Source: Microcystis viridis FACHB-1342 (lineage in GTDB: Bacteria; Cyanobacteriota; Cyanobacteriia; Cyanobacteriales; Microcystaceae). Taken from it: a stretch of 35,265 nt of DNA. The stretch lies in NCBI RefSeq assembly GCF_014698335.1, contig NZ_JACJSV010000051.1:1-35265 (forward strand), read 5' to 3'. The position numbers were made by a program, and so were the translations under genes. Shown piece by piece: positions 10,598-34,420 of the stretch; position 1 is the first letter of the stretch; each line of letters begins with the position of its first letter. The notes below the pieces were generated by a model, which worked only from the letters and a program-made list of their open reading frames with translations, had not been told where the DNA came from and searched no databases.

Positions 10598-11964
<1,367 letters not shown>

Positions 11965-15667: not shown

Positions 15668-15675
15668 AGATAACT

Positions 15676-16164
15676 ATGAAACCTGGTGAAATAATTCGTG
15701 TGATCGCTATTATCGTTGTGGGCGCGATCCTTATGTTCTTGATTCAACCCTTTATCTTTAGAACGGGAGCGATTTGGTCGCCCAGCGTTCAATATCCGGG
15801 AGCGGCCCTAGCGAGTTGGGCGAGTGGGGCGTATATGGTGGCGGCGGGGGTGGTTTTCGGATTGTCGATCGCTTGCACAATTCTCTGGTGCGTGATGACG
15901 GCGAAATCGGCCGCTAGACGACCGGATGAACTCAGAGCTTGGAGCTTGTGGTGGTGGCTTCTCGGAATCGTTCCTATTCTGAGTATCGGTCTCGCCATCG
16001 GGTTTTTCAATCCGATCGAAGAACTGCGTTTACTCCTCGCCCTCTTTTTTGTACTGGATATCCTCATCCTGTTTTGGCTACCGACTGCCAGTAGCACCCC
16101 GGGCCTGTTGATCTACACACCACCCCTATCCCATCAACTGCGGGATATCATCGATCGATTTTAA
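15676..16164 (+). CDS. Four-helix membrane protein, function unknown
   Basis: A 162-residue protein with four clear hydrophobic spans: about residues 8-28, 50-74, 90-110 and 116-135. The loop between spans two and three is basic (TAKSAARRPDELRA), predicting that it faces the cytoplasm, with both ends inside as well. No family was recognised. It ends 23 bases before the tubulin-like gene and is co-oriented, so it may provide the membrane dock for that filament or for other products of the operon. The composition is richer in GC than the sensor genes downstream. Confidence 0.65.
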   Translation: MKPGEIIRVIAIIVVGAILMFLIQPFIFRTGAIWSPSVQYPGAALASWASGAYMVAAGVVFGLSIACTILWCVMTAKSAARRPDELRAWSLWWWLLGIVPILSIGLAIGFFNPIEELRLLLALFFVLDILILFWLPTASSTPGLLIYTPPLSHQLRDIIDRF

Positions 16165-16172
16165 GAAAAAAA

Positions 16173-16178
16173 AGGAGG
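16173..16178 (+). promoter_or_regulatory. Strong Shine-Dalgarno of the tubulin-like gene
   Basis: AGGAGG lies 9 bases before the ATG at 16188, after a run of eight A. It fixes the start at 16188 rather than the ATG at 16194. Such a complete ribosome-binding site is uncommon in this window. Confidence 0.7.
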
Positions 16179-16187
16179 CAATTCAGT

Positions 16188-17693
16188 ATGGCCATGTATG
16201 TGATCGGCATCGGGGGAACGGGGGCGAAATGTATCGAGGCAATCACGAAACTCGCCTCGGTGGGACTGTTTACCGAACAACCGTTAAAAGTTCTCTTTAT
16301 CGATGCGGACGAAACCAACGGGAATCTAGAGCGATCGAGAAACGCGCTCAGTATCTACAGCCGATGTCAGGAGTTGATCGTCGGCAAAGAGAACCAAGAT
16401 AATAGCCAACTCCATCCCTGGATGAAAACTAAGATCGAATCCTTCGATCTCTGGTCGCCCTTTGGGGGGGTTAATTCCAGTAAAGAATTGAAAGCCTTTT
16501 TCAACTACAACACGCTCAAACAAAATCAACCCGCTCTCGGTAATCTATTCGATGTTCTCTACACGAAAGACGAACAGGAAGTCTCGCTAGACGTGGGTTT
16601 CCGCGGTCGTCCGGCGATCGGTTCGGCGGTGATGAGCCAAGTGGATCTCGAACGATTGGATCAAGAACCCTGGGGAGCGCTGATCAAACAAATACAAGCA
16701 GACACAGGCGCAGGAAAAGCCCCGAAAGTGTTTCTCTGCGGGTCGATGTTTGGGGGAACTGGAGCCTCTGGACTACCGACGATCGCCCGTTTACTGGCCA
16801 ATAAACTGAAAAATATCGGGGTCAAAGATCGAGTCAAGATCGGTTGTCTGTTCCTGTTGCCCTATTTCGGGTTCACCCCGCCGCCTGGAGAAGATCCGGA
16901 CGGGATTTTCGCTCGTTCCGAACAATTTTTACTGAACACCGAAGCCGCCCTACGCTATTATGTAACCCAAGCGCGAGAGACCTTCGATACGGTTTTTCTG
17001 CTGGGAAATGAAAACTTCTCGAAAGTGGAATTTAGCGTCGGCAAAAATAGCCAGCGCAATGATCCCCACTTCCTAGAACTCTATAGCGCCCTCGCCGCGC
17101 GGTATTTTTTCCTCCATACCGCCGAAATAGGGGAAAAAGTCGTTTTAATAGGCCGGGAGCAAATCGGTCGGCTGATTTGGGACGATCTGCCGGATCGAGC
17201 GGAAATCCAACCCGCGCTCGTCAACGGGACTCGATTCGCCTACAGTTGGCTGTCCGAGTTTGAACCCGAACTCAACGGCATCCTCAAAAGAAAAGATGAT
17301 CGCCTGGTACTTACACCCTGGTCGCGCCCTTTCTTTCCCCATAAAGGCTCGGCAGACGGGATGACGCGGTTAGGTGACACCCAACAACAGGAAGCACTGA
17401 AGACGATTAGCGCCTGGTGTCGGGATTATCTGACTTGGTTGTACCGCCTGCACCAGATCGAGGGAGAACAGATACAACTCTTTAACACCCAAGCGATGGG
17501 TGATCCAGAAAAGTCCCTCCGACGAGAACAGTTAGCAGAACTGGTACTCGATCGCCATCTCGACAATAAAACCAAATCGAGAGACACGATCACCTCTCTG
17601 ATGCAAAGCCTACAGAGCTATAAACCCGACAACTCCGCGGAGCCTGGGATCGCCGCATTAGCCAAAGCCCTATACACCTTTTGTAAGCAATAG
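16188..17693 (+). CDS. Tubulin/FtsZ-fold GTPase-like protein
   Basis: A 501-residue protein with the two glycine-rich signatures of the tubulin superfamily. The N-terminal loop MYVIGIGGTGAKC (residues 3-15) starts a Rossmann strand and corresponds to the FtsZ GGGGxN region. CGSMFGGTGASGLP (184-197) corresponds to the tubulin GGGTGSG loop, and between them FIDADE (38-42) marks the next strand. The spacing between the loops is longer than in FtsZ (about 170 residues against about 90), as in the divergent prokaryotic tubulin-like families (Tubulin_2 type). The C-terminal half is unrecognised and helical. It is clearly not the housekeeping FtsZ. It is followed 10 bases later by the actin-like protein, so the two are co-expressed; polymerisation is inferred only. 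Confidence 0.8.
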   Translation: MAMYVIGIGGTGAKCIEAITKLASVGLFTEQPLKVLFIDADETNGNLERSRNALSIYSRCQELIVGKENQDNSQLHPWMKTKIESFDLWSPFGGVNSSKELKAFFNYNTLKQNQPALGNLFDVLYTKDEQEVSLDVGFRGRPAIGSAVMSQVDLERLDQEPWGALIKQIQADTGAGKAPKVFLCGSMFGGTGASGLPTIARLLANKLKNIGVKDRVKIGCLFLLPYFGFTPPPGEDPDGIFARSEQFLLNTEAALRYYVTQARETFDTVFLLGNENFSKVEFSVGKNSQRNDPHFLELYSALAARYFFLHTAEIGEKVVLIGREQIGRLIWDDLPDRAEIQPALVNGTRFAYSWLSEFEPELNGILKRKDDRLVLTPWSRPFFPHKGSADGMTRLGDTQQQEALKTISAWCRDYLTWLYRLHQIEGEQIQLFNTQAMGDPEKSLRREQLAELVLDRHLDNKTKSRDTITSLMQSLQSYKPDNSAEPGIAALAKALYTFCKQ

Positions 17694-17703
17694 CCTTTAG
17701 TCT

Positions 17704-20958: not shown

Positions 20959-20969
20959 CGGCTAACCAG

Positions 20970-21031
20970 AGGGGAAGTAGGAAAAATACCGGCGAGGTCT
21001 TTTCTACTCCCCTTAGCAAAAAGTCTAAGGG
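20970..21031 (+). promoter_or_regulatory. Two overlapping RNA hairpins that could mask a ribosome-binding site
   Basis: An outer imperfect stem (AGGGGAAGTAGGAAAA at 20970-20985 with TTTTCTACTCCCCT at 21000-21013, two bulges) overlaps a second stem (CCCTTAG at 21010-21016 with CTAAGGG at 21025-21031, 8-base loop). The right arm of the second stem contains part of the Shine-Dalgarno AAGGGAG of the next gene. The stems share 21010-21013, so they exclude each other. This could tune the ratio of the ATPase to the coiled-coil proteins; it is inference from base pairing alone. Confidence 0.45.
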
Positions 21032-21037
21032 AGAACG

Positions 21038-21964
21038 ATGATGTCTAATTGTCCAGTTTGTGATGCTATATATAACGAAGGGCAAGAGAGTTGTACGGTA
21101 TGTAACTGGCCTCTGAATAATGACTCTCAAAAAATTATTATCTGGGCGAAAGGTATTTGGGAAGAGAGAAGTAGTATTAAAGATAAATATAACAAGCGCA
21201 AGACAAAAGATGAAGAGTCTTTAGTGGATGAAATCAAAAGGGATTTGATCGACCCTTTGCAAGCCGAGCTTATGGATTTGAAAAACTCCTTACAAGAAAA
21301 GTTACAAACCATACATTTAGAGCGAGATAGAACTCTAAAAGAACAACTAGAATCAATCAATAGTAATATTAAAAATATCGAGCAAAATCAAGAACAGTTA
21401 GCTACAAAAAATCAAGAAAACTTTTCTCGATCTCAAGAAGAAATTGAAAAAATTAGCAATAGAGTAGGAGATTTAGAAAACAATATTCGAGTGAACGAAC
21501 GTGCCAATCGAAAAATGGTTTCTAACCAATCCTCATATCCTTCTGAAACAAGCGTTTCCTATCCAGAACTTTCGCCACAAACTCAGAACCCGATTAGCCT
21601 AGAAGAATCGAATCTAGCGAAAAGATATAACCGCGATCGAGATGCTTTTTCCCAACAGGCAATCAACGTCACCGCCACCGAAGAAAGCTTGACAAAACTA
21701 AGAATCGGTAGTTCCTCGCGGGTAATCTTCGAGAAAAATCGTCGCGGCAATTATTCGATCATCAAAGAAAACGGCACAGAATATTTAGTACCGAGTAACA
21801 ACCTCAGACTGAACCAACACAACTACAAAGCGATCGAAGACTTTTTCGACTGTAAAAATCTTCAGCTAGAGGGTAACTTTGAACTTCTCAAACCCGCTAG
21901 AGTTTCCGCTTTACCCGGAGGGGAAACCTGGCAGTTAGAGGAACGCGGCATCCTACAATTCTGA
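21038..21964 (+). CDS. Zinc-ribbon coiled-coil protein with shared C-terminal domain
   Basis: The 308-residue protein has three parts. A zinc ribbon has CPVC (5-8) and CTVC (19-22). A long charged coiled coil spans about 40-150, ending in the motif RVNERANRKMVSN. A C-terminal domain of 97 residues (212-308) has the landmarks GNYSIIKENGTEYLVPS, LRLNQHNYKAIEDFFDC, LLKPARV, and a terminal block ETWQLEERGILQF. The same domain occurs once in the next gene and twice in the one after. I recognise no named family for it. There is no signal peptide, so it is cytoplasmic. Start: ATG 21038 or 21041 behind AAGGGAG, which lies in a hairpin. Base composition is more AT-rich than in the two preceding genes. 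Confidence 0.75.
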   Translation: MMSNCPVCDAIYNEGQESCTVCNWPLNNDSQKIIIWAKGIWEERSSIKDKYNKRKTKDEESLVDEIKRDLIDPLQAELMDLKNSLQEKLQTIHLERDRTLKEQLESINSNIKNIEQNQEQLATKNQENFSRSQEEIEKISNRVGDLENNIRVNERANRKMVSNQSSYPSETSVSYPELSPQTQNPISLEESNLAKRYNRDRDAFSQQAINVTATEESLTKLRIGSSSRVIFEKNRRGNYSIIKENGTEYLVPSNNLRLNQHNYKAIEDFFDCKNLQLEGNFELLKPARVSALPGGETWQLEERGILQF

Positions 21965-21985
21965 TATATAAAATCGGTGAATCCT

Positions 21986-23545
21986 ATGAAAAAAATCAGC
22001 TATGCTAAATTGGCTCTATCCCTGCTCCTCGTTTCTACTGTCCTCGTCGGATGCGGGAAGGGGACTGATCCCCAAAAAGAGCAAACCTCTCAAACCTCCT
22101 CGGCAACCGTCGAGAAATCTCCTCAATTACAGAGCGATATCGATAAAGCTTTCGATGAGTTAAAAAAAGAACAGCAAAAGTTTCTCGATGCCCTCAAGGG
22201 AGCGATTACGATTACTGACAAGAAAAAGCTGGAAATTATTAAGAGCGATGCGGTTAGTACAAAGATAGAAAATTTACAGACAAAAATAAAAGAGTATCGC
22301 AAAAATCAGCTACCGAAGCTAAAAGAAGAAGAAAGAGCATCCATTGAGAAAATTTTGGGTGACATCGATAGCTCTTTAGAGGAAATCTCTCAAAAGGTAA
22401 TCAATCCTTTTAAGACAGGATTGACAAGAGATGCAATTGAAAATGTTCAGAAACAATTAGATTTTTTTACAAGAAGAGATATCTCCCAAGATAATTATGG
22501 TAACTTTGGAGATACTACCGTCGGGGAAATTACAAAATTTCTCCAAGATAAACAGAAGTCACTAGAAGATAATATTAAACAATTAAAATCTCCCATCGAT
22601 CCAGAAATACAAAAATTATCTAATCGAATAGCACAGTTAGAAAAAGAAAAAACCTCTTCTAATACCACTTTTCTCGTTGCTATATTAGCATTATTAGCGA
22701 GCGTAATTTCTTTGCTAAGATCCCGCAAAAGATCGAGTAGAAGCTCTTCTATAGGACAACCATCACCCAATAGACATGAGCCTACGAATAAGCGCTTTTC
22801 TAGATTCAATTTTTGGAGTAAAGAAACAAACCCTAAAGGAGATGGAGACGGGGAATCTCCAGAGAACTCGTCCGCTTCAGTTGCTTCTCAAAATTTGAGT
22901 ACAAATGAAACTCAACTTTATTATAAAATTTATGAACGAGTTTACAACGATATTTACAAAAAACTCTCTAAAGAGATAAAAGATATCGAGCGAAAAATTA
23001 CACAAGAAAACCGTATAATTAATGATAGAATTGCCGATTTAGAATTAGAAAAACACAATCGGAAAACCAAAGATACAAAAGTTCGGGAACAAAAAGAACC
23101 AACTGGCATAACCACTTTGAACCCTTCTGCACCACCCGCGAGCCAGACTTACCAGAGTACAGCACCTTCAGTATCTAGCTCTTCCCACTCCCTAGTAGGA
23201 GATAATTATTATCGAGATGCTCGTTCCTCATCCCCGATCGAAGTATCTCCTACAGAAGAAAGCCTAGCGAATCGTCGAATGGGAGGGAGCGAACCAATTG
23301 TACTAGAAAATAAGCGCCGGGGTTACTATGAGGTGTACCTCGACGGTAACTATCATTGTTTGGTACCTAGCCAGAATTTTAGAATCAACCAGAATAACTA
23401 TAAAAGCGTTGAGGATCTATTCGAGTGCCAGAACTACGATCCGAATTATTCCGATAGCTATACCGTCATCCGTCCTGCGGTAGTCTATCCCCTAGCGGGT
23501 GGGCAAACTTGGCAGTTACAACAGCGAGGAGTTTTACGTTTTTAG
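21986..23545 (+). CDS. Lipoprotein with internal membrane span and shared C-terminal domain
   Basis: The 519-residue protein starts at ATG 21986 (a GTG at 21977 is less likely) with a lipoprotein signal, hydrophobic core then VLVGC. A periplasmic coiled-coil segment of about 200 residues follows. A second hydrophobic span, FLVAILALLASVISLL (around 230-246), is followed by the very basic RSRKRSSRSS. By the positive-inside rule the lipidated N-terminus and coiled coil are outside and the rest is in the cytoplasm. The cytoplasmic part has another coiled coil and ends in the shared domain (GYYEVYLDGNYHCLVPS ... TWQLQQRGVLRF). The layout is that of a transmembrane sensor. The last 651 bases are almost a copy of the end of the next gene. 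Confidence 0.75.
   Translation: MKKISYAKLALSLLLVSTVLVGCGKGTDPQKEQTSQTSSATVEKSPQLQSDIDKAFDELKKEQQKFLDALKGAITITDKKKLEIIKSDAVSTKIENLQTKIKEYRKNQLPKLKEEERASIEKILGDIDSSLEEISQKVINPFKTGLTRDAIENVQKQLDFFTRRDISQDNYGNFGDTTVGEITKFLQDKQKSLEDNIKQLKSPIDPEIQKLSNRIAQLEKEKTSSNTTFLVAILALLASVISLLRSRKRSSRSSSIGQPSPNRHEPTNKRFSRFNFWSKETNPKGDGDGESPENSSASVASQNLSTNETQLYYKIYERVYNDIYKKLSKEIKDIERKITQENRIINDRIADLELEKHNRKTKDTKVREQKEPTGITTLNPSAPPASQTYQSTAPSVSSSSHSLVGDNYYRDARSSSPIEVSPTEESLANRRMGGSEPIVLENKRRGYYEVYLDGNYHCLVPSQNFRINQNNYKSVEDLFECQNYDPNYSDSYTVIRPAVVYPLAGGQTWQLQQRGVLRF
22895..23545 (+). repeat. 3' paralogous segment, first copy
   Basis: From TTGAGTACAAATGAAACTCA to the stop region, this segment is highly similar at nucleotide level to 24338-24946 in the next gene. 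The main difference is a 42-base (14-codon) block near 23192-23235, absent from the other copy. Near-identity over the terminal domain suggests recent duplication or gene conversion. Confidence 0.8.
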
Positions 23546-23569
23546 TGCGCTAGAGTACGATGAGGAGTG

Positions 23570-24946
23570 ATGAGAGAAGTTATCCAGATGACGAAACTAA
23601 ATTTTGCGATCGCCGAAATCGTGGATATTTATAATTTCCTACCCAAAGTTCTGGCCCCGAAAGTGGTCAAAGTTGCGGTTCATCCTTCTCAATCTAATAG
23701 GGACAGGCCATCTCTAGCCGAACAGAAAAACGGGAACTATTGGATAGTCCTAGTCGAGGCTAATTACTGGCTACTGCCCCAAAGCGGCCTACGCATCAAT
23801 CAATTTAATCTAGCCACCGTTAAATCTCTATTCGACTGTCAAGGATACGAACTTTCTGAACACGGGGATTTTGTATTACTAGAGGCCGCTCAGGTGTCGG
23901 GAATGCCAAACGGGACAGAGTGGAGACTAGAGAAAAAAGGAGTAATCAACTTTGATCCTAACTATCCCGCAGACGAATTGCGATCGCAACAAAAGCAAGC
24001 GCAACAGGAGATCGATCGTCTTCAGTCCGAGTTAGAGGAGAGCAAAAGGAGAAATCAACGATTAAACGCTCAACTAGCCGAATTAGCCTACGATACATTA
24101 CAAAAGATCCGCGCTGATTTAGTCACCAGAGATGAGTTTATCGAACAAAGTCACAAGCTAAATACCTTAGAAGAATATCTAAACAATGCCTTTGATAACT
24201 TAGACGAAGCCTTTGATAACTTAGACGAAATTCAAGTTAAGTTAGAAGATTTAGAAACCAATATTCGAGCGAACGAACGTGCCAATCGAAAAATGGTTTC
24301 TAACCCATCATCTGGTTCTCAAGTTAATTCTCTAAGTTTGAGTACAAATGAAACTCAACTTTATGACAAAGCTTACGATCAAACTTATCAAGAGATTGAT
24401 AAAAAATTCCCTGGAAAGTTTAAAGATGTCGAGCGAACAATTAGACAAGAAAACCGTATAATTAATGATAGAATTGCTGATTTAGAATTAGAAAAACACA
24501 ATCTGAAAACCAAAGATACGAAAGTTCAGGAACAAAAAGAACCAACTGGTATAACTACTTTGAAACCTTCTGAACCACCTGCGAGCCAGACTTACCAGAG
24601 TACAGCACCTTCAGTATCTAGCTCTTCCCACTCCCCGATCGAAGTATCTCCTACAGAAGGAAGCCTAGCGAATCGCGAGATGGGAGGGACCGATCCAATT
24701 GTACTAAAAAATAAGCGCCGGGGTTACTATGAGGTGTACCTCAACGGTAACTATCATTGTTTGGTACCTAGCCAAAATTTTAAAATCAACCAGAATAACT
24801 ATAAAAGTGTTGAACATTTATTCGAGTGCCAGAACTACGATCCGAATTATTCCGATAGCTATACCGTCATCCGTCCTGCGGTAGTCTATCCCCTAGCGGG
24901 TGGGCAAGCTTGGCAGTTACAACAGCGAGGAGTTTTACGGTTTTAG
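23570..24946 (+). CDS. Coiled-coil protein with two copies of the shared domain
   Basis: About 458 residues from ATG 23570 (GTG at 23567 and ATG at 23588 are alternatives). The first copy of the shared domain is N-terminal (GNYWIVLVEANYWLLPQSGL, then NQFNLATVKSLFDCQG, and EWRLEKKGVINF). It is followed by a Gln/Glu/Arg-rich coiled coil, a 21-base in-frame duplication (AFDNLDE twice), and the segment RANERANRKMVSN also present in the zinc-ribbon protein. It ends in a second copy of the domain nearly identical to that of the preceding lipoprotein. No signal peptide or membrane span is seen. A double-headed cytoplasmic adaptor linking the other two proteins is a reasonable guess. Its mosaic of pieces from both neighbours points to recombination. 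Confidence 0.75.
   Translation: MREVIQMTKLNFAIAEIVDIYNFLPKVLAPKVVKVAVHPSQSNRDRPSLAEQKNGNYWIVLVEANYWLLPQSGLRINQFNLATVKSLFDCQGYELSEHGDFVLLEAAQVSGMPNGTEWRLEKKGVINFDPNYPADELRSQQKQAQQEIDRLQSELEESKRRNQRLNAQLAELAYDTLQKIRADLVTRDEFIEQSHKLNTLEEYLNNAFDNLDEAFDNLDEIQVKLEDLETNIRANERANRKMVSNPSSGSQVNSLSLSTNETQLYDKAYDQTYQEIDKKFPGKFKDVERTIRQENRIINDRIADLELEKHNLKTKDTKVQEQKEPTGITTLKPSEPPASQTYQSTAPSVSSSSHSPIEVSPTEGSLANREMGGTDPIVLKNKRRGYYEVYLNGNYHCLVPSQNFKINQNNYKSVEHLFECQNYDPNYSDSYTVIRPAVVYPLAGGQAWQLQQRGVLRF
24188..24229 (+). repeat. Perfect 21-bp in-frame tandem duplication
   Basis: GCCTTTGATAACTTAGACGA plus A occurs at 24188-24208 and 24209-24229, adding seven residues (AFDNLDE) to the coiled coil. The identity is complete, so the duplication is young or still changing in copy number. 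Confidence 0.85.
24338..24946 (+). repeat. 3' paralogous segment, second copy
   Basis: This is the partner of 22895-23545 and carries the same linker and terminal domain, minus a 14-codon block. The two copies differ by scattered substitutions, for example GGTDPIVLKN against GGSEPIVLEN in the protein. Confidence 0.8.
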
Positions 24947-24987
24947 CTCATCTGACTATTTAGCAATCAACAACGAAAAATTTCCCC

Positions 24988-25746
24988 ATGAACGTAATCA
25001 TTATTGGCAATAAAAGTGTTGGTAAGACCAGTATGGTCATTACCCTATCGAAAGGAACCGAAAATGTTAAAGTGATCCCTTCTGGCCCTGGAGGTAAAAT
25101 CGCTACACTGTCCAATGATAGCATTGAAAAACTAGCGGGAACTTCTCAAAAAGAAGAAGAACCTCTCCTGCTGAGAATTAACCTTCCTTCCGGTTTGGAA
25201 AGAGAGGTGAGAGTTCAGTGGATTGATACCCCTGGGGAAGCCTGGTCTAAACCCGCGTGGCAACAAAGCAACCCAGAAAAATATCAAGATCTGGTACACA
25301 CTCTCGGTCAAAGTCAAGCGGTTTTACTCCTGCTGCCTCCCTATCGATATCGAATTCGAACTCAAGAAATAGAAGATACTCCCGAATTTGAGGAAATTCT
25401 CGACCCGGAGACCTGGAAAAAACAACTCAAGGAACGTCTCACCCTCTTGCGATCGCACTGTCCCAGCGTACAACATATTTTAATCTCTATCCATAAAGCC
25501 GATCTATTTCACAACCTAGAGGAGGAAAAAAACACCTGGCAATACAACACCAACGCTTCCTTTCTCTGGGGGAAACACGACGATCATATCCGAGAGACCT
25601 ATTTTTCCCTAGCCGATGATATAATCCGCGAACATAACTCCCAACCTCCCTACCTCAATCCAAAATTTTTCGTCACCAGCATTCACCATCCCACTCTACT
25701 AGAATTACCCTGGGTCTATTTAGGAGCTTATTTCGCCAATGCCTAA
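24988..25746 (+). CDS. Small P-loop GTPase, first of three
   Basis: A 252-residue GTPase-like protein. G1 is GNKSVGKTS at 7-15, G3 is WIDTPGE at 78-84, and the G4 position reads ISIHKADL (167-173), where the Asn of NKxD is His but the Asp is kept. This suggests guanine specificity may be altered or retained through the Asp only. VTSIHHP near the C-terminus could serve as G5. No membrane anchor is present. The gene overlaps the next by 8 bases (the ATGCCTAA at 25739-25746), so translation is coupled. Together with the two larger relatives that follow, it probably forms the switch of the system. Confidence 0.75.
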   Translation: MNVIIIGNKSVGKTSMVITLSKGTENVKVIPSGPGGKIATLSNDSIEKLAGTSQKEEEPLLLRINLPSGLEREVRVQWIDTPGEAWSKPAWQQSNPEKYQDLVHTLGQSQAVLLLLPPYRYRIRTQEIEDTPEFEEILDPETWKKQLKERLTLLRSHCPSVQHILISIHKADLFHNLEEEKNTWQYNTNASFLWGKHDDHIRETYFSLADDIIREHNSQPPYLNPKFFVTSIHHPTLLELPWVYLGAYFANA

Positions 25747-26602
25747 AGCCTCTACAGAAATTCGCGTGATCGGGGCGAGAAGTTCGGGAAAAACCACCTA
25801 TCTTGCCACCCTAGCCGTTCTTCCATCGGGTTTACTAAAAAAATATCCCAACTTAGAGGTGATTCCTCGCAATGATGAAGCCACGGCCCTACGGAAACGC
25901 GCGCTCGATACGCTCAAAAATCAAGGAAAGATAGCGGGAGATGCCTTCGATGCTGATCAACTTCATAACCTCAAGGACTATGACTTTCTCATCAAAATCC
26001 CGCCGGGGAAAAAGCGATCGAGCATCGAACTAGAACTCCTTGCCAAAGATTTCCCAGGGGAATTTTTTGAACATATTCCCATCCCTCATCAATGGAAAAA
26101 AATCACCCCTTGGGTTGATGACCTATTCACTACCGTAAGCTGGATGGTGATGATGACCGATTGGGAACCCGAACGCGACACATCGCTATATCTCCCGGCG
26201 TTTACCAAACTATGTGAGGAAATTCGCGAGCGGGAAATTCGCAACCCAGAAATTGAAAAACTCCGGATCGCCGTCGTCATGGCTAAATGTGAAAGGGGAG
26301 AACTCTGGCCCTGTCGTCTCGATCCCGACGAGGATTTATTCGAGGTACGATTGCCCGAAACCTATAAACATCTCACCAAAACTTTAACCCCCGATCGATT
26401 ACAATTCTTTGCCTGTTCTGCATTCGGGGTTTTGGGAAGTCGCCGCGATCGAGATTTTGATCCCCGGCCAAACTGCTACTTACCCGACGACGGTTCCCCA
26501 GAAGAAAAAAACGCCTATTTACGAGAACCCGATCGCTGGTATCCCTACGGATTAATTCCTCCGCTATACTGGTTAGCGACAGGCATTCGACTCGAAGAAT
26601 AA
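25739..26602 (+). CDS. P-loop GTPase of the double-GTPase/TRAFAC-like type, second of three
   Basis: The 287-residue protein has G1 GARSSGKTT (12-20), then VIPRNDEAT, G3 KDFPGEFF (103-110), a G4-like VVMAKCE (179-185) and G5-like FFACSAFG (223-230), ending RWYPYGLIPPLYWLATG. The NKxD motif is degenerate (AKCE). The next gene has the same blocks, so the two are paralogues and may heterodimerise. Walker-like PRxSGKTT loops with a DFPGE switch are seen in GTPases next to VWA and SrfB-type proteins in other bacteria; that comparison is from memory. Overlap upstream by 8 bases and a 2-base gap downstream place it firmly in the operon. Confidence 0.75.
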   Translation: MPKASTEIRVIGARSSGKTTYLATLAVLPSGLLKKYPNLEVIPRNDEATALRKRALDTLKNQGKIAGDAFDADQLHNLKDYDFLIKIPPGKKRSSIELELLAKDFPGEFFEHIPIPHQWKKITPWVDDLFTTVSWMVMMTDWEPERDTSLYLPAFTKLCEEIREREIRNPEIEKLRIAVVMAKCERGELWPCRLDPDEDLFEVRLPETYKHLTKTLTPDRLQFFACSAFGVLGSRRDRDFDPRPNCYLPDDGSPEEKNAYLREPDRWYPYGLIPPLYWLATGIRLEE

Positions 26603-26604
26603 TT

Positions 26605-27498
26605 ATGTGGAGTCGTCAACAACCCCCAGAAACCACCGATTCTCAGCCTACCGAATTTCGGATCATCGGACCGAGGCGATCGGGTAAAACCACCTATCTA
26701 TCTGCGTTGGCCTACTGGCCGAACGCGAAACCCGATAGTCCGATCGAGAAAGTTATTCCCCGCGACGACGATACGGCTAAACTAATCGCTATGGCAAAAG
26801 ATATCCTAGAAAATAATGCCATGTTAATGGCTACCTATCTAGCCAGCAATCCGAGCGAAATTCCCACTTATAACCTCTCGATTCAAATGAAGCCCACTTG
26901 GCAAGGGGGACAAGCGATCGATATAATTTGTAAAGACTTTGCTGGGGAATTATTTGAAAAACTATCCCAAGGCAAAACTTCCCACATCGAAGAGTATCTA
27001 GAAGAATGTGCCTCTGCCCTAGGATTACTCATCCTACTCGATGGTACTTTCTTCACAGAAGATCAAAAGTACGCCCAGGGATTGGCCACCTTGAAACAAC
27101 AATTAAAGTGGCGACTAGAAAAAAAAAATCAAAACCTCTCCCAGTATCGGATCGCCTTAGCCTTTACCAAAGCCGAACAATCTAAAATGCGAATCCACCG
27201 ACAGGATATCCCCAGATTTATGAGGCTAAAATTTAATAAAACCTATCAATTACTAGAAAATTGGGGCAAAGAGTGGCCCTGTCCTGTTAAGTATTTTTTT
27301 TGTTCGGCATTTGGCATGAAGCCAGGTGCTTCTCCCGACTCTCCCCTCGCCAACGTTCAAGTTACTAGCCGCGAAGGTGGTGTGACTTCTGGAGTGATCG
27401 ATAACCCAAAAGTGTGGAGACCCTTGGGATTAATGGCACCAATTTACTGGTTACACACGGGTACCGATCATCCCCAACTCAGAGACATAGAGGATTAG
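26605..27498 (+). CDS. P-loop GTPase, paralogue of the preceding one, third of three
   Basis: The 297-residue protein repeats the plan of its neighbour: G1 GPRRSGKTT (22-30), VIPRDDDTAKL, G3 KDFAGELF (110-117), G4-like AFTKAEQ (186-192) and G5-like FFCSAFGMKPG, ending WRPLGLMAPIYWLHTG. The N-terminus has about 15 extra residues and there is a short Gly/Ser insert before the end. TKAE replaces NKxD, so nucleotide specificity is uncertain. It starts 2 bases after the stop of the previous gene and ends 7 bases before the next. Pairing with the preceding GTPase as a heterodimer is inferred from their similarity and tight linkage. Confidence 0.75.
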   Translation: MWSRQQPPETTDSQPTEFRIIGPRRSGKTTYLSALAYWPNAKPDSPIEKVIPRDDDTAKLIAMAKDILENNAMLMATYLASNPSEIPTYNLSIQMKPTWQGGQAIDIICKDFAGELFEKLSQGKTSHIEEYLEECASALGLLILLDGTFFTEDQKYAQGLATLKQQLKWRLEKKNQNLSQYRIALAFTKAEQSKMRIHRQDIPRFMRLKFNKTYQLLENWGKEWPCPVKYFFCSAFGMKPGASPDSPLANVQVTSREGGVTSGVIDNPKVWRPLGLMAPIYWLHTGTDHPQLRDIED

Positions 27499-27505
27499 AA
27501 AAACT

Positions 27506-30016
27506 ATGAGCGATTCCATTTTGATCAAGGAATTTTCTCGGAAATTGTTAGAACCGAAAAGACAGGGCGATCGGTGGGTTTCTAGCGGATTCGACAAAGA
27601 AATCGGTTTAAGAACCCATGAGAATCCTCCCACCCCCATTCAAAATGCAGTCCATAACCACTGGTTTCGGATTAATGATAGTTATCCGCCGGCAGAAGGA
27701 AAGATTGCCCTCATCGCACGAGAAATCGATAGATACGCAGTTTTAGCGGTAGCCTCTCCCCTAAAAGATGATAGCGATCGACCTCTGGTAGGCTATCGTT
27801 ATTTCTGGCTAGAAAAGCCCCTAGATGGAGAAATAGATGCCGTGGGAACATTGTTAGAATGGTGGGTCGAGCGAAATTCCCCCCGTTTCGAGCTAAAGCT
27901 TTATTCAGAGATCAGACATATTCAGCAACAGAATCGTGGACAGGGATATTATTCAGCGATTCTTCACAGTCCTCATGATTTCGATAAAGTTCGTCAATTT
28001 GAGCAACTTGCTTTAGAAGTACAACAAACTCCTCATATTTTTACTCCTAGCAATAGCTTTATTCCTAGTTATTGGCATTTGCATTTTTTTTCTCGATATC
28101 TCAAACAAAAATATAATCGCCCGATCGCTTGGGCGTGGAAGGTCACTGTTTTAGAAAGTCCTAATCAATTTACCCTAATCGCTTGCACTACTCAAGAATA
28201 CTGTCAGATCAATTCCGATGCCAACAAAATCCCAACCGCATTAACTCCCCATAAAACTGGGCAAGATATACTAGATACTTCCCCTGTACAGGTTCAATCA
28301 ATTCAAAGTTTAAAAAGAGCATTAAAAGAACTCTCAGAAGGCAAAGAAATTGATCAAAACCTAAATATCTTAGTTCAAGAACTAGAAAAAACCGATAGCA
28401 CTCGATGGGATTGGGCAACGCTGATCGATAGCACCTGGCTGGAGCAACGACAGCACACCCAACAAGAAAAGATTTATAAATCATTGATTCTACTATTAAA
28501 TCCCAATTTACAGCATACTGACTTAACGATTACCGTCTCCGATTGGCTCAATAGCCTACAAGCGCCAGTATCTCCCGCACCTCAAAAATTGCTGGATTTC
28601 TCTCGCTTTCTTCCCTCAGCCTTATTGACTCATTTCCAGCCATCCGAATTACCCGTTACTCAAGAAGCGAAAGAAGCACTCGATCGACAGCATCAGTTGA
28701 TACAATTGTATTCTAGAAATTCGGTCATATTAGACAAGAATAAAACAAGACTCCATCAACTCATCGCTCGGTTATTTCTCCTACTGCGATCGAACCTCTC
28801 CCCCAAATCAGAAGAAGTAATTCAATGGCTACTTATCGACTACTCCCCACTCTGGAAAGAATCTCTAGAAATCTACACCAACGATCTGTTTAGAAAGCTC
28901 GATCGAGCCTATCTCAAAAAAGAACAATTACCCCCTCAAGAAAGGGATAAGTTTATCGAGAAAATTCTCGAAGACTTAAAACAGCGTGAGCAAGGACAAA
29001 CCACCGAAAATCCCTCGTCCTACGAGAGCATCGCAGGGATTCTAGAAAAGAATAAATCCTATCCGATCGCCGCTTTTTTCTATAAACTCGCTACGGGTAA
29101 AGTTCCCGATAAAATTTGGGAAAACTGCACGAACCTCCCCGAAATTATTCCCCTAGAAAGACCCCCCGCCATTCCTCCACAATCCTCCGAGAAAAGTCCC
29201 AATTCTCTCAAGAAAATCGCCCTAATTCTTTGGCAAAAATATCCTTGGCAATGTCTAGGGTTGAGTGTGGCAGTCGGGACGGTGTTGGGGGTGGGAGTCC
29301 TGTGGGGAGTTCAATCGATCGGACGGGTATTTTCTCCGAAGATTTCCGCAAATCAATCGGTCATTATTCCCTCCGATCCCGTTCGGGAACTATACTTATA
29401 TTTTAATCTCCTAGAATCGGGCGATCGCCGACAAGATCTGCAAGCGAAAAATCTAGACAACCTAAAGAAGTTACGGGAAAAGATGCCCGATTTCAACGCT
29501 TCCCAGTGTAAAACCAGCACTCAACGCGAAGCATGGCTAAGAGAAAGATCAAGTATTATCAAAGATCCTTTATATCGCTTCCTTCAACAACTGACACCAG
29601 CAGTTCCGGTAGAATTAAATAAAACTTACACCGCTAACCAAGTGACAGCCAATCCTCCTCTCAACGCCCCAGAAATTGCCCTAGGGAAAAGTCTTCTCCA
29701 CTCGCTACAATTGTATGAGGGGGAAATCACTCCGATTTGGGATCAGAAAGTATCGGATGCGATCGCTAAGTTCAAAACACAATACCAGATTCAGCCAGCA
29801 GGAGGGGATTTAGATAAAAACACTTGGTCGATTCTCGCTCCCATGATTCAAGATCGGCAGATAAAAACAGCGATCAATACCCTAGAAAGAATCCTAAAAG
29901 AGAGCGAAAATTACTCGATCGCTCTCCCTCGATACAAAGCCTTTCAGCAGTGCAAAACTCAGACAAATACCGCCTATTCTGCCTGCCTAGATCAAATATT
30001 CAAACCCGATAAATAG
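27506..30016 (+). CDS. Large GTPase-linked protein with membrane span and PG-binding-like C-terminus
   Basis: The 836-residue protein starts with a domain of about 115 residues shared with the next gene: FSRKLLEPK, WVSSGFDKEIGL, NAVHNHWFRINDSYPP, DDSDRPLVGYRYFWLEKP and GTLLEWW. A long helical middle follows. At about 577-600 there is one strong hydrophobic span (CLGLSVAVGTVLGVGVLWGV). After it, about 725-780, ALGKSLLHSLQLYEGEITPI and KFKTQYQIQPAGGDLDKNTW resemble a peptidoglycan-binding (PF01471-type) repeat. The N-terminal part would thus be cytoplasmic beside the GTPases, and the C-terminus would touch the cell wall. The N-terminal domain is not one I can name. It sits 7 bases from genes on both sides. 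Confidence 0.75.
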   Translation: MSDSILIKEFSRKLLEPKRQGDRWVSSGFDKEIGLRTHENPPTPIQNAVHNHWFRINDSYPPAEGKIALIAREIDRYAVLAVASPLKDDSDRPLVGYRYFWLEKPLDGEIDAVGTLLEWWVERNSPRFELKLYSEIRHIQQQNRGQGYYSAILHSPHDFDKVRQFEQLALEVQQTPHIFTPSNSFIPSYWHLHFFSRYLKQKYNRPIAWAWKVTVLESPNQFTLIACTTQEYCQINSDANKIPTALTPHKTGQDILDTSPVQVQSIQSLKRALKELSEGKEIDQNLNILVQELEKTDSTRWDWATLIDSTWLEQRQHTQQEKIYKSLILLLNPNLQHTDLTITVSDWLNSLQAPVSPAPQKLLDFSRFLPSALLTHFQPSELPVTQEAKEALDRQHQLIQLYSRNSVILDKNKTRLHQLIARLFLLLRSNLSPKSEEVIQWLLIDYSPLWKESLEIYTNDLFRKLDRAYLKKEQLPPQERDKFIEKILEDLKQREQGQTTENPSSYESIAGILEKNKSYPIAAFFYKLATGKVPDKIWENCTNLPEIIPLERPPAIPPQSSEKSPNSLKKIALILWQKYPWQCLGLSVAVGTVLGVGVLWGVQSIGRVFSPKISANQSVIIPSDPVRELYLYFNLLESGDRRQDLQAKNLDNLKKLREKMPDFNASQCKTSTQREAWLRERSSIIKDPLYRFLQQLTPAVPVELNKTYTANQVTANPPLNAPEIALGKSLLHSLQLYEGEITPIWDQKVSDAIAKFKTQYQIQPAGGDLDKNTWSILAPMIQDRQIKTAINTLERILKESENYSIALPRYKAFQQCKTQTNTAYSACLDQIFKPDK

Positions 30017-30023
30017 ACGCTTA

Positions 30024-31604
30024 ATGATGTGGAATCGATGCGAAATTTATCAATTCTCTCGAAAACTTCTAGAGCCAAAATGGTCTAAAAGACATGAGTG
30101 CTATGTGAGTACAGGATTTGATCGAGAAATCGGCGGAGAAAATCAGGAAGTACCCCCGGAAATTGCGAATGCCGTCCATAATCATGCCTGTCGAATTAAT
30201 GATAGTTATCCTCCCCAAACTATCGCCCTAATCTCTAGAGAAATCGGCAAATATGCCCTATTAGCGGTGGCGACAGCCTTAAGAGATGACAGCGATCGCC
30301 CTCTAATCGGCTACCGCTATTTCTGGTTAGAAAAACCCTCGCAAGATGGCGAAATAGACGGAATCGGAACGCTGCTAGAATGGTGGATCACTCAAGGTTC
30401 TCCCACCTTTCAACTACAACCCTCCTCTTCATCTCCCAAAACACCCCCAAAAGCTTCTAGTTCTTGGCTAAATCGCCATGATTTTTTTAAAAAATATTCA
30501 ACCGATTCGGTGAATATTTCTATCAAAAAAATAGAACAAGAAAAAAAATACTCTCGATCTCCATTATATTTAGACAATATAACTTTTGAGGATTGTCGAG
30601 AATTTCATGCTCTAGCCCTTTCTCTACAAGCAAACGATTCTAGTCCCCTAAATTGGGCTTTTCGAGTGTCTCAATTAGAGATTCCCGAACAATTCTCTCT
30701 GGTTTACACCCAGGATAGCGAGCGAGAACAATTAATTATTCGGTTCGATCGAGTTCCCGAATCCTTCTCGACGGTTTCCGAATATATATCCAGTGATATC
30801 CAAGTCAAACGATGTTTACTAAATCTAGCGAAAAATAAAGATCTAGAACGAAACTTACAAGCCCTCTCTAGTTATTTATATAGTCTTGACAGTGACCATT
30901 GGAACTGGGAAATTATTGTTGATAAAACTGCGCTTAAAAATCATAATATCACGGCGGCTAGATATCGAGCATTACTGGCTATTTTAAAACCATTTCCAGA
31001 AATCGCTAACTGGCTAGACTGGCTACGGAAACGAAGAGGAAATAAACAGTTTGGGCGCGCGGGCATCGAGATGCAACAACAAGCGCTCGACCAAAATCCC
31101 CACCTCGAACAGCGACTATACGCTCTCATCGATGATCTATTAATAACGGAGCAATACAAAAATAGCAAAATTCCCGATCTACCCAAGGAAAAACAATGGT
31201 TATTAATTCGCTCCAAAAGCTTCTGGTCAGATTATTTTTATGACTCCGCAAAATATTATACTGAATCACTACTCATACAAATCCACTATCCAGAATATTG
31301 TCAACTAGACAATCATTTTTTTAACAAAATTTTACAAAACTATCAACAAAAAAAATTACCCGATGCTACTAAAAAACGATACGAATTTCTCGCACGACTA
31401 TTCGCCGAAGTGCGCGCCTATAGCCTAGCGGCTCTGTTTTATCAAGTAAGCCAAGGAGAAGTTCCCGCAGATATATACACCCAAGCCGAAATCCATCTCA
31501 TCGATCTTCAAAAAAGCCACCGCTCATCTGGACTGATCGGCCTAGCTTGGGCGAACCTGACACAGGATCTTATGCTATTATTTAGAAATCTGAGGGGAGG
31601 CTAG
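30024..31604 (+). CDS. Paralogue of the preceding protein without membrane span
   Basis: The 526-residue protein (ATG 30024 or 30027) has the same N-terminal domain: FSRKLLEPKW, CYVSTGFDREIGG, IANAVHNHACRINDSYPP, DDSDRPLIGYRYFWLEKP, GTLLEWW. It also shares the later pattern YSLAALFYQVSQGEVPADIY, matching YPIAAFFYKLATGKVPDKIW in its neighbour. It ends just where the neighbour begins its membrane span, so it is a soluble version, either by design or by loss of the 3' end. A Ser/Pro linker follows the first domain. The 141 bases after the stop hold no gene and could mark a transcriptional break before the FHA/VWA pair. Confidence 0.75.
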   Translation: MMWNRCEIYQFSRKLLEPKWSKRHECYVSTGFDREIGGENQEVPPEIANAVHNHACRINDSYPPQTIALISREIGKYALLAVATALRDDSDRPLIGYRYFWLEKPSQDGEIDGIGTLLEWWITQGSPTFQLQPSSSSPKTPPKASSSWLNRHDFFKKYSTDSVNISIKKIEQEKKYSRSPLYLDNITFEDCREFHALALSLQANDSSPLNWAFRVSQLEIPEQFSLVYTQDSEREQLIIRFDRVPESFSTVSEYISSDIQVKRCLLNLAKNKDLERNLQALSSYLYSLDSDHWNWEIIVDKTALKNHNITAARYRALLAILKPFPEIANWLDWLRKRRGNKQFGRAGIEMQQQALDQNPHLEQRLYALIDDLLITEQYKNSKIPDLPKEKQWLLIRSKSFWSDYFYDSAKYYTESLLIQIHYPEYCQLDNHFFNKILQNYQQKKLPDATKKRYEFLARLFAEVRAYSLAALFYQVSQGEVPADIYTQAEIHLIDLQKSHRSSGLIGLAWANLTQDLMLLFRNLRGG

Positions 31605-31745
31605 GGCAACCCAACGATCAAACCGAAAATTCCCCAACTACGAACGCACTAGCAGCATTAGACTATGGCGGAAACCTTTCTAGTCAATACTAGGAATACT
31701 TTGTCTCTAAACGTTTAACTGGATCAGGAAGGGAGTATTGAAAAA

Positions 31746-32789
31746 ATGAGACTTGTTTTTTATCTGTTGGGGGGCATTATTTCAGCGCTGATCGGCTGGA
31801 ACTTGAGCTTAGTGATCTTAGACCTCTTTAAATTCGCATCGAAGACAATTACTGGAAGCACTTTCCCTTTTTACGTCGAGTTTATTCTCTTCCCGATCGT
31901 CACTATCTGTTTAAGTGTTACCCTTGTCCTAACGACCATTTATCTGAGTAATCCGATTCACTATAAAGCGAATCGAAGAATCCGCAATAGTTATCTCAAA
32001 ATCGCCCTAAAAACTGGTTTAATCGCTGGAGCGATCGCCGCAGTGCTAACTGTGATTATTTACCAGGGAAAATTCCCCCCGGCAAGTGTTCGCATAGTGG
32101 GCTGGAGTTTAATCGGTTTAGGGGCCGGTGTAGCCGAGGGATTATCTTGGCGATCGCTGAGTACCGAGGGCGCGAAAAGTAACACCTTTGAGCGACCGAT
32201 AAAATCTGCCCTTTTCGGATTACTTGCCGGTTTAATTGCCGCCCTAGCGATTGAATTTCTCCGAACAATAATCCCCCTTGGCGGTTATGAAGATCTTTTA
32301 GGATTCACCCTTTTCGGCGCTGGTTTAGGGATGGCGCTCGCCATTTCCACAACCCCCACCTATCAAGTCGCACTGAGAGCCGGTAGAGGATTCGGACGCG
32401 CCCGAAAAGATAACCAATCGGGAAACTATCCCAAAATTAACGATCGCTCTTTAAGAATTGTCAATTTCGAGCAAACCCAAATTGAAGAAGGATTATCTAT
32501 CCAACTTCCTCGCGATACTTCCCAATCTTTACAGATTGGTTCTGCGGAAGATTCCGATATATTTTTACCCGATGTACCCGCAATAGCCGCCAAGCTCAGT
32601 TTAGAGAGAAAACAATGGAGACTTAGCACCCCCGTCGAGAATAAAGTACAGATACAAAGAAGAATGTTATCGGAAAATGCCACGGAAACCTTATATCACA
32701 ATCAAATGTTGACTTTCTACCATGAAAAAACAAATACCTGCTATTACCGATTTATTTTTTGCGATCGCTTTCTCGATCCGGACAACTAA
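31746..32789 (+). CDS. Polytopic membrane protein with FHA-like C-terminal domain
   Basis: A 347-residue protein with about six hydrophobic helices in residues 1-205 and a cytoplasmic tail of about 130 residues. The tail contains SLQIGSAEDSDIFLPDVPAI then AAKLSLERKQWRL, the pattern of forkhead-associated domains (IGS...DI.L.D..V...). The canonical Ser and His of FHA are not obvious, so phosphothreonine binding is uncertain. A reasonable Shine-Dalgarno (GGAAGGGAG) lies upstream. The final 68 bases overlap the start of the VWA gene in another frame, a long overlap that implies tight coupling. FHA and VWA proteins are frequent partners in secretion and conflict systems. Confidence 0.7.
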   Translation: MRLVFYLLGGIISALIGWNLSLVILDLFKFASKTITGSTFPFYVEFILFPIVTICLSVTLVLTTIYLSNPIHYKANRRIRNSYLKIALKTGLIAGAIAAVLTVIIYQGKFPPASVRIVGWSLIGLGAGVAEGLSWRSLSTEGAKSNTFERPIKSALFGLLAGLIAALAIEFLRTIIPLGGYEDLLGFTLFGAGLGMALAISTTPTYQVALRAGRGFGRARKDNQSGNYPKINDRSLRIVNFEQTQIEEGLSIQLPRDTSQSLQIGSAEDSDIFLPDVPAIAAKLSLERKQWRLSTPVENKVQIQRRMLSENATETLYHNQMLTFYHEKTNTCYYRFIFCDRFLDPDN

Positions 32790-34107
32790 AAAAGCTGGTA
32801 GAAACCTTCTGCTTTTTCCCCTATCGATCCTCGCGTTCACTTTCTTCGATTCTGCTTCCGTCCGAGCGAATTCCGTCAAGATTCTCCGCGCCATTACCGA
32901 CCACGATCAAGTGACTTTAAAAGTACAAGTTCGCGACCATCGTGACCTGCTCGTACCCGGATTACAAGCGAATAACTTTACCGTCCTCACCACGGCGGCC
33001 AATCAAACCGAATTTAAATATCGATTAACTCCCCTAACTCTCCCGAAAATTACTATAACCCCACCCGATCAAGTCAAACCCGATCCCGCCTATTTAGTGA
33101 TTTTGCTAGATATGAGCGGCAGTATGGATAATCGGGATGAATCCCAACAAGTCAAACTCCAGGGAGCGATCGAGGGAATCCAAAAATTTATTACCACGAT
33201 CAAAACCAAAAAACTTCCCGTAGAAATTGCCCTAGTTCCCTTTGGGGAAGGGTGCGCCCATAGCTATCCGGTCGATCAGACAGTGATTCAAAAGTATCTA
33301 GAAGCCTATCCATACAAAACAACCAAAACTCGACTTTCCCAGTTAGCCAATATTGATGTCTGCGCCTCCACCAATCTCTATCAACCCCTCGATGAAGCGG
33401 TCAATTTTCTGACCACTTCCGAACGTTTTCAGCAAAATTCTTGGGGTCTGCCTCCCCGTCTCGGCGTGATCCTATTTACCGATGGATTCGATGCCGATCC
33501 CGATCGAAACAAGGAAGAACAACGCTTTCAGTCCACTCTGGCTCTGCTGGCCCGTTCCCCTCACGTCACCGTCCACACGATGGGATACGGCGAATCCCTA
33601 ACCCGACTCCGCGCCCGCGCCCAATGCGCCCAGGAGTTACGCGGCCGCCCTCTCACGGTGGATACTCTCCTTACCTACTGTCAGCTTCCTTGGGGAGAAG
33701 ATATCCGCGAGTTTATCGTCGATCGATCTCGATTGACAGCGATTGCTAAAGAGACCGGCGGAATTGCCCGATTCCCGCGTTCAGCTGAAGAAGTGAGCCA
33801 AGGATTACGAGAGTTCCTGACCGCGCTTCGAGAATACGAGATCAGCTATCCACAACCAACCGCCGATCGGCTCACCATCCATCAAGCCAAAGTTATCGTC
33901 AATGCTCCAGGAAGAGGTATGTCCTCTCTCATCTCCGCACCGCTCGAATTCCAGATGCCGAATTATCTCTATCACTCTCTCTCGATTTGGGAACGTTTGG
34001 CGATTTTTCTCGGTACGCTAGTCGCAACGGTATTCGGTGTTCGCCGGTTCAATGCCTGGAGCCACCAACTCAAAGAAGAAAGCCGCCGAAATTTAGAGGG
34101 GTTTTAA
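32722..34107 (+). CDS. Membrane-anchored VWA-domain protein
   Basis: The 461-residue protein has an N-terminal hydrophobic stretch (LLLFPLSILAFTFF, about 29-42) followed by SASVRAN, a likely signal peptide, then a beta domain. A VWA domain from about 122 has a complete MIDAS DMSGSM (130-135) with later Thr and Asp positions (ASTNLYQPLDEAV, VILFTDGFDADP). A C-terminal helix, LAIFLGTLVATVFGV, anchors it. The VWA domain should therefore be periplasmic. The start overlaps the FHA-like gene by 68 bases. The final codons (EGF and stop) are made from DNA that matches the prohibitin-family gene at 12708-12730, so the natural C-terminus has probably been altered by the junction. Confidence 0.8.
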   Translation: MKKQIPAITDLFFAIAFSIRTTKKAGRNLLLFPLSILAFTFFDSASVRANSVKILRAITDHDQVTLKVQVRDHRDLLVPGLQANNFTVLTTAANQTEFKYRLTPLTLPKITITPPDQVKPDPAYLVILLDMSGSMDNRDESQQVKLQGAIEGIQKFITTIKTKKLPVEIALVPFGEGCAHSYPVDQTVIQKYLEAYPYKTTKTRLSQLANIDVCASTNLYQPLDEAVNFLTTSERFQQNSWGLPPRLGVILFTDGFDADPDRNKEEQRFQSTLALLARSPHVTVHTMGYGESLTRLRARAQCAQELRGRPLTVDTLLTYCQLPWGEDIREFIVDRSRLTAIAKETGGIARFPRSAEEVSQGLREFLTALREYEISYPQPTADRLTIHQAKVIVNAPGRGMSSLISAPLEFQMPNYLYHSLSIWERLAIFLGTLVATVFGVRRFNAWSHQLKEESRRNLEGF

Positions 34108-34117: not shown

Positions 34118-34135
34118 ACAGGTGCAAGATCACCT

Positions 34136-34420
34136 ATGGATGATAATCTGCTTAAGTCCCTTGAATTGGCTAAAGATAAGCGAAAAACTAAATGATAAAA
34201 ACAATTTATTAAAACCATAAGAAAGAATACTTGATTTTATTGAAGTTCACTGCGAGGAACTCCTCTATGCTGTTTAAATCCCGAAAGACAAAGCAGAAAT
34301 TTAACCCTGATTACTGGCGAGATCATTCGGCCAACGAACGTACCTATCTGTCTTGGATGCGTGCTTCCATCGCTTTGATGGGTTTTGGTCTAGTCATTTT
34401 GCGTTTACGGACAGCATCTT
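34136..34420 (+). repeat. Downstream copy of the 285-bp island-flanking direct repeat
   Basis: Same length and order as 13353-13637, with about 13 substitutions and no gaps counted by eye. It includes the end of the prohibitin frame and the first 51 or so codons of DUF202. Differences at synonymous positions suggest that the duplication is not brand new or that the copies came from different strains. Confidence 0.9.

Follow-up and report, generated by a model that had tools for sequence, protein, structure and literature searches.

What does a long run of co-directional genes in the cyanobacterium Microcystis viridis FACHB-1342 encode, and is it one system? The stretch analyzed here (the window) comprises positions 1 to 35,265 of contig NZ_JACJSV010000051.1. 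A reading made from the letters alone (the sequence-only reading) had seen in it at least a dozen co-directional genes with short or negative gaps, taken together as one undescribed envelope signaling or conflict system. Open reading frame (ORF) analysis of the window confirmed the layout: 13 genes, all on the same strand, span 15676-34107 with intergenic gaps of 23, 10, 79, 12, 21, 41, -8, 2, 7, 7, 141 and -68 bases. The run was found to contain two operons, A (13762-24946) and B (24988-34107), which lie on the same strand of the same island with a 41-bp gap between them. The start at 15676 had to be moved: operon A begins upstream of it, at a divergent VWA-like lipoprotein gene on the minus strand (13762-15144). 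The labels of the genes are given in Table 1; briefly, operon A encodes a membrane protein (TM1), a tubulin-like protein (TUB), an actin/Hsp70-like protein (ACT) and three proteins with a shared CC domain (CC1 to CC3), and operon B encodes three GTPases (GT1 to GT3), two large proteins (GAPa and GAPb, names coined in this analysis), an FHA-like membrane protein and a VWA protein. Our preferred interpretation, held at a confidence a little short of even, is a horizontally acquired 20.8-kb island with two separately distributed, envelope-associated NTPase operons that share one broad task, the handling of envelope stress or invasion.

Gene neighborhoods were compared at 24 other TUB loci from 23 genomes and at 72 ACT loci; the two sets overlap. 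The ACT loci were found by scanning genome contigs with two peptide patterns, and because both patterns come from cyanobacterial sequences the scan cannot show absence elsewhere. Cyanobacterial names are carried by 71 of the 72 ACT records; the remaining one is labeled Euryarchaeota (CPC89) and sits within the picocyanobacterial part of the TUB tree. Several loci stop at contig ends, and the sequence downstream of ACT exceeds 4 kb in 54/72 and 8 kb in 45/72. The common core of operon A consists of the VWA-like lipoprotein, a protein with four transmembrane (TM) segments, TUB, ACT and then CC-domain proteins. ACT lies within about 4.2 kb 3' of TUB in 22 of the 24 TUB loci (none was seen downstream of TUB in G111 and G080a), and TUB adjoins ACT in 63 of the 68 ACT loci whose upstream sequence exceeds 1.7 kb (62 by ORF and L161 by tblastn). 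In the ORF search, the lipoprotein gene (upstream of ACT) and the TM protein, TUB and ACT genes occur together in 40 of the 58 loci with more than 4.5 kb upstream, which became 42/58 after tblastn recovered a TM or TUB gene missed in two loci. At 29 of these 58 loci the lipoprotein gene is divergent, at another 14 it runs in the same direction, and in L109 it is found 9 kb downstream. The divergent gene at 13762-15144 belongs to operon A.

Operon B is equally well ordered. Eleven of 13 operon B loci in other cyanobacteria keep all six genes in the order GT1, GT2, GT3, large protein, FHA-like protein and VWA protein, and the operon is also present in two Microcystis genomes (G386 and G387). Operon B genes were found in none of the 72 ACT loci and in none of the 24 TUB loci (some of these stretches are short); operon A genes were found in none of the 13 operon B loci. 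A single conserved A+B operon was rejected on these counts, which lend no support to the claim that the dozen genes form one system. The search for the same gene set in other genomes, proposed in the sequence-only reading, gave a divided answer: each operon recurs in order, and A was not seen beside B at any other locus. TUB is present in 24 of 386 cyanobacterial genomes and relatives of GAPa in at least 13 of 373, the own genome included in both cases; the GAPa figure is a lower bound because the family diverges fast. The two positive lists (24 and 13 genomes from overlapping samples) have just two genomes in common, that of the window (G000) and G318, and in G318 operons A and B are on different contigs. 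It was concluded that operons A and B are separately distributed, each recurring in conserved order and patchy across cyanobacteria.

Both operons are enclosed in a 20.8-kb island between 286-nt direct repeats with 95% identity. All 10 other Microcystis genomes examined have an uninterrupted site, with contiguous flanks and one repeat copy; an eleventh (G388) has no close match to the flanks and was left out of the count. Each of the two island repeats shares 95-98% identity with the single copy in nine of these genomes and 84-85% with the one in the tenth. Integration by crossover between a circle bearing the island stretch and the chromosome would fit this arrangement, and no integrase or transposase was recognized among the Pfam matches of the island proteins. 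The TUB tree places the window protein with Crocosphaera (100/100), far from the Microcystis rows L141 and L142. Relatives of TUB are carried by five plasmid records from cyanobacteria (three from Picosynechococcus, one each from Gloeothece and [Synechococcus]), and the two examined both carry the whole operon A core; Picosynechococcus sp. PCC 73109 is one strain with operon A on a plasmid. GT3 has relatives on eight plasmid records, from Nostoc, Tolypothrix, Trichormus, Microchaete and Gloeothece, and both of those examined carry the six operon B genes in order; plasmid B of Trichormus variabilis ATCC 29413 is among the carriers of operon B. TUB was found in no phage record, and no GT3 relative was confirmed in viral contigs. 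The island was probably acquired horizontally, and both operons appear to travel on mobile DNA.

The tubulin and actin/Hsp70 folds claimed in the sequence-only reading are upheld by profile, the first modestly and the second better. TUB of the window gives a partial match to PF13809 (Tubulin_2; E 1.4e-9, 38.1 bits, cut-off 27). This model matches 24 of 25 TUB family members at E<=0.1, with 1.4e-9 as the best value, and the GGxG and FGGTGA motifs are invariant in the family alignments. Used by itself, the cyanobacterial TUB profile has no match to a solved structure at E<=10, and the cross-family profile matches four, each a member of the tubulin superfamily (best E 0.0048). The cross-family alignment retains both motifs, and one of its stretches, possibly the T7 loop, has a Q and an E that are invariant. 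These profiles lend modest support to a tubulin fold for TUB, weaker than that for the actin fold of ACT. ACT of the window has no Pfam match above cut-off. Within its family, the FtsA model matches 17/18 and the MreB model 13/18 members at E<=0.1. The cross-family ACT profile finds FtsA (best, E 2.4e-5), MreB and Hsp70 structures, and the cyanobacterial profile finds MreB and FtsA plus a few chance-like structure matches such as RPB5. The phosphate 1, phosphate 2 and adenosine motifs of the actin/Hsp70 superfamily are all present; DFGTSFT, DxGGGTSD and GGNGSR are conserved, and actin-type motifs are also kept in the cross-family alignment. The profiles thus argue for an actin fold. TUB and ACT have no TM segment and would be cytoplasmic. 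Second ACT-like paralogs are found in L110, L113, L121 and L130; they lack the searched nucleotide-binding motifs, except that L121 keeps one partial match.

Among the other operon A proteins, the lipoprotein family alignment (n=20) shows a near-invariant C20, and D51, G52 and S55 are invariant in 20/20. Lipobox calls by eye and hydrophobic segments bear out the envelope-facing parts that had been noticed earlier. CC1, CC2 and CC3 have the C-terminal CC domain in common. In a pooled set from three search rounds this domain is found in 199 ORFs: the ACT loci contribute 141 (from 60 of the 72), the 24 TUB loci, an overlapping set, 51, two plasmids four and the window three; none is in the 13 operon B loci. 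In L121 it is fused to a degenerate ACT paralog. Because CC proteins accompany ACT in 60/72 loci and one CC-ACT fusion exists, it is suggested that the CC proteins bind ACT. A distant fifth CC-domain copy lies off the island in a 738-amino acid (aa) frame (G000:C106:32590-32883, E 2.7e-10).

The operon A arrangement is also found beyond cyanobacteria. In Prevotella sp. oral taxon 299 the gene order runs lipoprotein, small TM protein, TUB (E 4.3e-38) and ACT (E 2.3e-23), and the next two products are a coiled-coil protein and a TM protein with a zinc ribbon. The Prevotella lipoprotein has a VWA-like motif by eye and is tied to the cyanobacterial family via L256 (E 1.8e-18). A McrB-like gene (E 4.4e-38) is located upstream in this record, two ORFs from the lipoprotein gene. 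The same gene order was found in five viral-collection records (L256, L257, L258, L259, which is near-identical to L258, and L264), contigs that are putatively viral. The lipoproteins of L256 and L258 match the cyanobacterial profile (E 1.9e-14 and 5.7e-7), and the gene in that position of L257 and L264 has no profile match. By eye, L264 also has genes resembling a relaxase and an integrase. Two candidate neighbors were rejected. TerD-like proteins, first seen by eye beside L264, were found by family search in 0/5 records. The family search was negative for a MotA/TolQ-like (Zorya-like) protein seen by eye beside L258, its sole match being elsewhere in the Prevotella record. The L258 neighbor gave only chance-like phmmer matches to coiled coils, and MotB_plug (E 0.039) and OmpA (E 0.018) matches in that neighborhood are weak. 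Recurrence in unrelated bacteria suggests that the tubulin-actin pairing is a genuine envelope-linked machine.

The three P-loop GTPases of operon B were correctly recognized in the sequence-only reading: all match DO-GTPase models, and GT3 (26605-27498) alone passes the cut-off (PF19993, 35 vs 27 bits). DO-GTPase1 matches 9/14 and DO-GTPase2 7/14 members of the GT1 family at E<=0.1; for GT2, DO-GTPase1 matches 14/14 (best 1.5e-9). GT1 and GT2 of the window are under the cut-off. G107 and E108 of GT2 and G114 and E115 of GT3 are invariant in 14/14; the Walker B glutamate is conserved in GT2 and GT3 and is not invariant in GT1. The VWA protein at 32722-34107 also stands (PF13519, 29.1 bits, cut-off 27); it matches TIGR03436 with E 4.3e-17, under that model's cut-off. 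Two other assignments were carried over in weakened form. The proposed wall-contacting protein GAPa matches PG_binding_1 weakly (E 9.6e-4, 19.7 bits vs 23). The membrane protein at 31746-32789 has hydrophobic segments, and its FHA part is weak (PF16697, 17.1 bits vs 33.2). The best solved-structure matches of its family profile are to Ki-67 (E 0.07), an FHA domain. GAPa and GAPb were considered as GAP1-N2 proteins and this was rejected: GAP1-N2 is above cut-off in 0/291 cyanobacterial genomes including the own genome, and no GAP1 is among the matches listed (25 of 42 families) for 18 GAPa/GAPb members, GAP1-N1, -M and -C not having been searched separately. No FNIII or GASH component is among the Pfam matches of 14 island proteins at E<=1.

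Both operons appear related to published types by gene content, operon A being further removed. The main text of Makarova and Koonin (2010; PMC2875224) describes operons, also from cyanobacteria, in which FtsZl1 is joined by vWA, GTPase and OmpA-type proteins, and proposes a role in membrane remodeling. According to that text most FtsZl1 members have a coiled coil and an alpha-helical C-terminal domain, and the operons sometimes include a GTPase or peptidoglycan-binding protein. Operon A resembles them in its tubulin-superfamily protein and membrane proteins, and perhaps in its VWA-like protein. As to the vWA gene that marks FtsZl1 operons, the motif is present in 20/20 lipoproteins of our family and Pfam VWA matches 1/20 (E 0.07). 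Unlike FtsZl1, judged by length, the 25 aligned TUB members have 488-534 aa, versus 1078 aa for the canonical copy of the own genome. This copy is located away from the island (G000:C13:15366-16385), and no operon A or B profile match was found in the 19.9-kb stretch around it. A term search of the main text of PMC2875224, the operon families being in supplements outside that search, found no actin/Hsp70 operon partner. DO-GTPase conflict systems with GAP1, in which tubulin, HSP70 and kinase are non-overlapping themes of linked genes, are described in the portion of Kaur et al. (2020; PMC7159879) used here. Compared with that portion, operon B is like the GAP1-N2-type systems in combining DO-GTPases, a vWA protein and envelope parts, and differs from DO-GTPase/GAP1 systems in having no recognizable GAP1-N2; operon A shares their tubulin and Hsp70-superfamily components, but joins both and does so without DO-GTPases. 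A SrfB-type partner, suggested earlier, was not borne out, and operon A is unlike SrfABC in this respect: the SrfB model matches 0/18 ACT members at E<=0.1. In open-licence PMC text no description of a dual tubulin and actin pairing was found. The term "undescribed" thus has to be narrowed to that pairing, as FtsZl1/vWA and DO-GTPase systems are in the published text consulted.

How might the island work? The VWA-like lipoprotein, on the outer side, and the membrane-spanning CC2 may monitor the periplasmic or membrane side; with its lipobox-like N-terminus and mid-protein TM segment, CC2 might connect the periplasm with a CC domain in the cytoplasm. TM1 would couple the lipoprotein and CC2 to the cytoplasm, where TUB and ACT would respond by switching or by assembling on the membrane and the CC-domain proteins would act as adaptors. 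Operon A would thus be an outside-in switch that drives nucleoside triphosphate (NTP)-dependent assembly at the membrane. In operon B the three GTPase paralogs may work with the large partners, the FHA-like membrane protein and the VWA protein. Both operons probably serve the management of envelope stress or invasion, moving like other conflict systems. The sensing, assembly, coupling and purpose of both operons are proposed here from gene content and motifs. A bolder and distinctly doubtful version holds that operon A is a mobile two-filament system, in which a tubulin relative and an actin/Hsp70 relative under a VWA-like lipoprotein and TM adaptors sense the envelope and answer invasion or damage, across at least Cyanobacteria and Bacteroidota.

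Several results weigh against the preferred interpretation. Profile searches recognized no toxin, nuclease or other effector in the island. PADLOC models were matched by none of the nine island proteins scanned (E<=0.1; the other five were not scanned), and a confirmed defense neighbor was found at one locus only. The lipoprotein gene was not found in 14 of the 58 loci, and in a fifteenth (L109) there is just the distant copy. The VWA identity of the 13762-15144 lipoprotein rests on its motif, since Pfam VWA matched one of 20 family members. The CC domain was compared with proteins in the same position outside cyanobacteria and homology found no support, with hhalign probabilities below 1%.

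An unlikely alternative, and the best surviving one, is that operon A is a cytoskeleton for membrane remodeling or cell organization, as was suggested for FtsZl1, that plays no part in conflict and is patchy because of niche traits. ARC6 is an FtsZ anchor. Such accessory genes were noted at L254, L255 and operon B loci: ARC6-like genes are found near operon B in 6 of 13 loci (serine-hydrolase-like genes in 3/13), and ARC6- or IMS-like and serine-hydrolase-like genes are also near a few operon A loci. The published combination of vWA, tubulin-like, GTPase, and peptidoglycan-binding or OmpA proteins in the main text of PMC2875224 speaks for such a cytoskeleton as well; the separate canonical FtsZl1 gene in the same genome and the operon A copies on the island and plasmids speak against it. 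It is improbable that the operons are a maintenance or partition machine of mobile DNA, with tubulin and actin acting like TubZ and ParM: copies are found on plasmids and the island and the core is in five viral-collection records (two near-identical), but two plasmids examined, one per operon, encode their own ParA and ParB, other copies are chromosomal (e.g., Arthrospira sp. PCC 9108), and the lipoprotein and membrane parts are unexpected in partition. A single integrated A+B machine has equally little going for it: the 41-bp gap, the common strand and island, and the few accessory genes common to some A and some B loci are set against the absence of each operon's genes from the other's loci and the mere two genomes on both lists.

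The coordinates are collected in Table 1. The ORF between the lipoprotein gene and TM1 is probably a remnant between the two arms.

Table 1. Features of the island, including both direct repeats. Zinc ribbon, lipobox and coiled-coil calls were made by eye or by simple pattern, without a predictor.
Feature	Position	Strand	Evidence
Left direct repeat	13352..13637		3' end of band-7 gene and DNA after it; 286 nt, 95% identity to 34135-34420
Operon A VWA-like lipoprotein	13762..15144	-	Lipobox LGIVSC by eye, DGSxSM motif; divergent
ORF like N-terminal part of AAA_35	15332..15667	+	PF14516 E 4.5e-4, under cut-off
Operon A TM1, 4-TM membrane protein	15676..16164	+	Four hydrophobic segments; homologs directly 5' of tubulin gene
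Operon A TUB, tubulin-like GTPase, 501 aa	16188..17693	+	PF13809; GGxG, FGGTGA
Operon A ACT, actin/Hsp70-like ATPase, 1084 aa	17704..20958	+	Nucleotide-binding motifs in C-terminal half
Operon A CC1	21038..21964	+	Zinc-ribbon-like Cys motif (CPVC..CTVC), coiled coil by eye; C-terminal CC domain
Operon A CC2	21977..23545	+	Lipobox-like N-terminus by eye, TM at 226-250, C-terminal CC domain
Operon A CC3	23567..24946	+	No TM; two CC domains, near both ends
Operon B GT1, DO-GTPase-like P-loop GTPase	24988..25746	+	Family matches to DO-GTPase models
Operon B GT2, DO-GTPase	25739..26602	+	DO-GTPase1 family matches
Operon B GT3, DO-GTPase2	26605..27498	+	PF19993 35 bits vs cut-off 27
Operon B GAPa, large protein	27506..30016	+	One TM (581-603); weak peptidoglycan-binding domain
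Operon B GAPb, N-terminal paralog of GAPa	30024..31604	+	42% identity to GAPa residues 7-334
Operon B 5-TM protein, FHA-like C-terminus (weak)	31746..32789	+	Hydrophobic segments, profiles
Operon B VWA protein	32722..34107	+	PF13519; hydrophobic segments at N- and C-terminus
Right direct repeat	34135..34420		Runs into DUF202 gene

Elsewhere in the window, 7437-9439 (minus strand) encodes an AAA_15/OLD-type ATPase with AriA as the nearest model (E 7.7e-59), together with a 195-aa partner without Pfam matches; the two are a candidate defense pair near the island. By eye, the two overlapping frames at 4662-6813 look like pieces of a single frameshifted FAD/NAD-binding protein whose C-terminal part resembles a metallo-beta-lactamase. 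A Cys/Met metabolism enzyme at 10598-11290 (minus strand) matches profile positions 193-380 of 381 only and is probably truncated. A pyrrolysine tRNA called by ARAGORN at 12093-12181 is probably false because no Rfam family matches at gathering score. The last 100 bases (35165-35265) are repeated many times across Microcystis genomes, often at contig ends, like a mobile element.

To our knowledge, bacteria seldom encode a tubulin relative and an actin relative together as partners. If the tubulin-actin pairing holds, operon A, compact and moving between bacteria, would offer a model in which linked NTP-driven assembly at the envelope can be tested. It would also broaden the DO-GTPase and FtsZl1 themes to include cyanobacteria, in which GAP1-N2 was not found.

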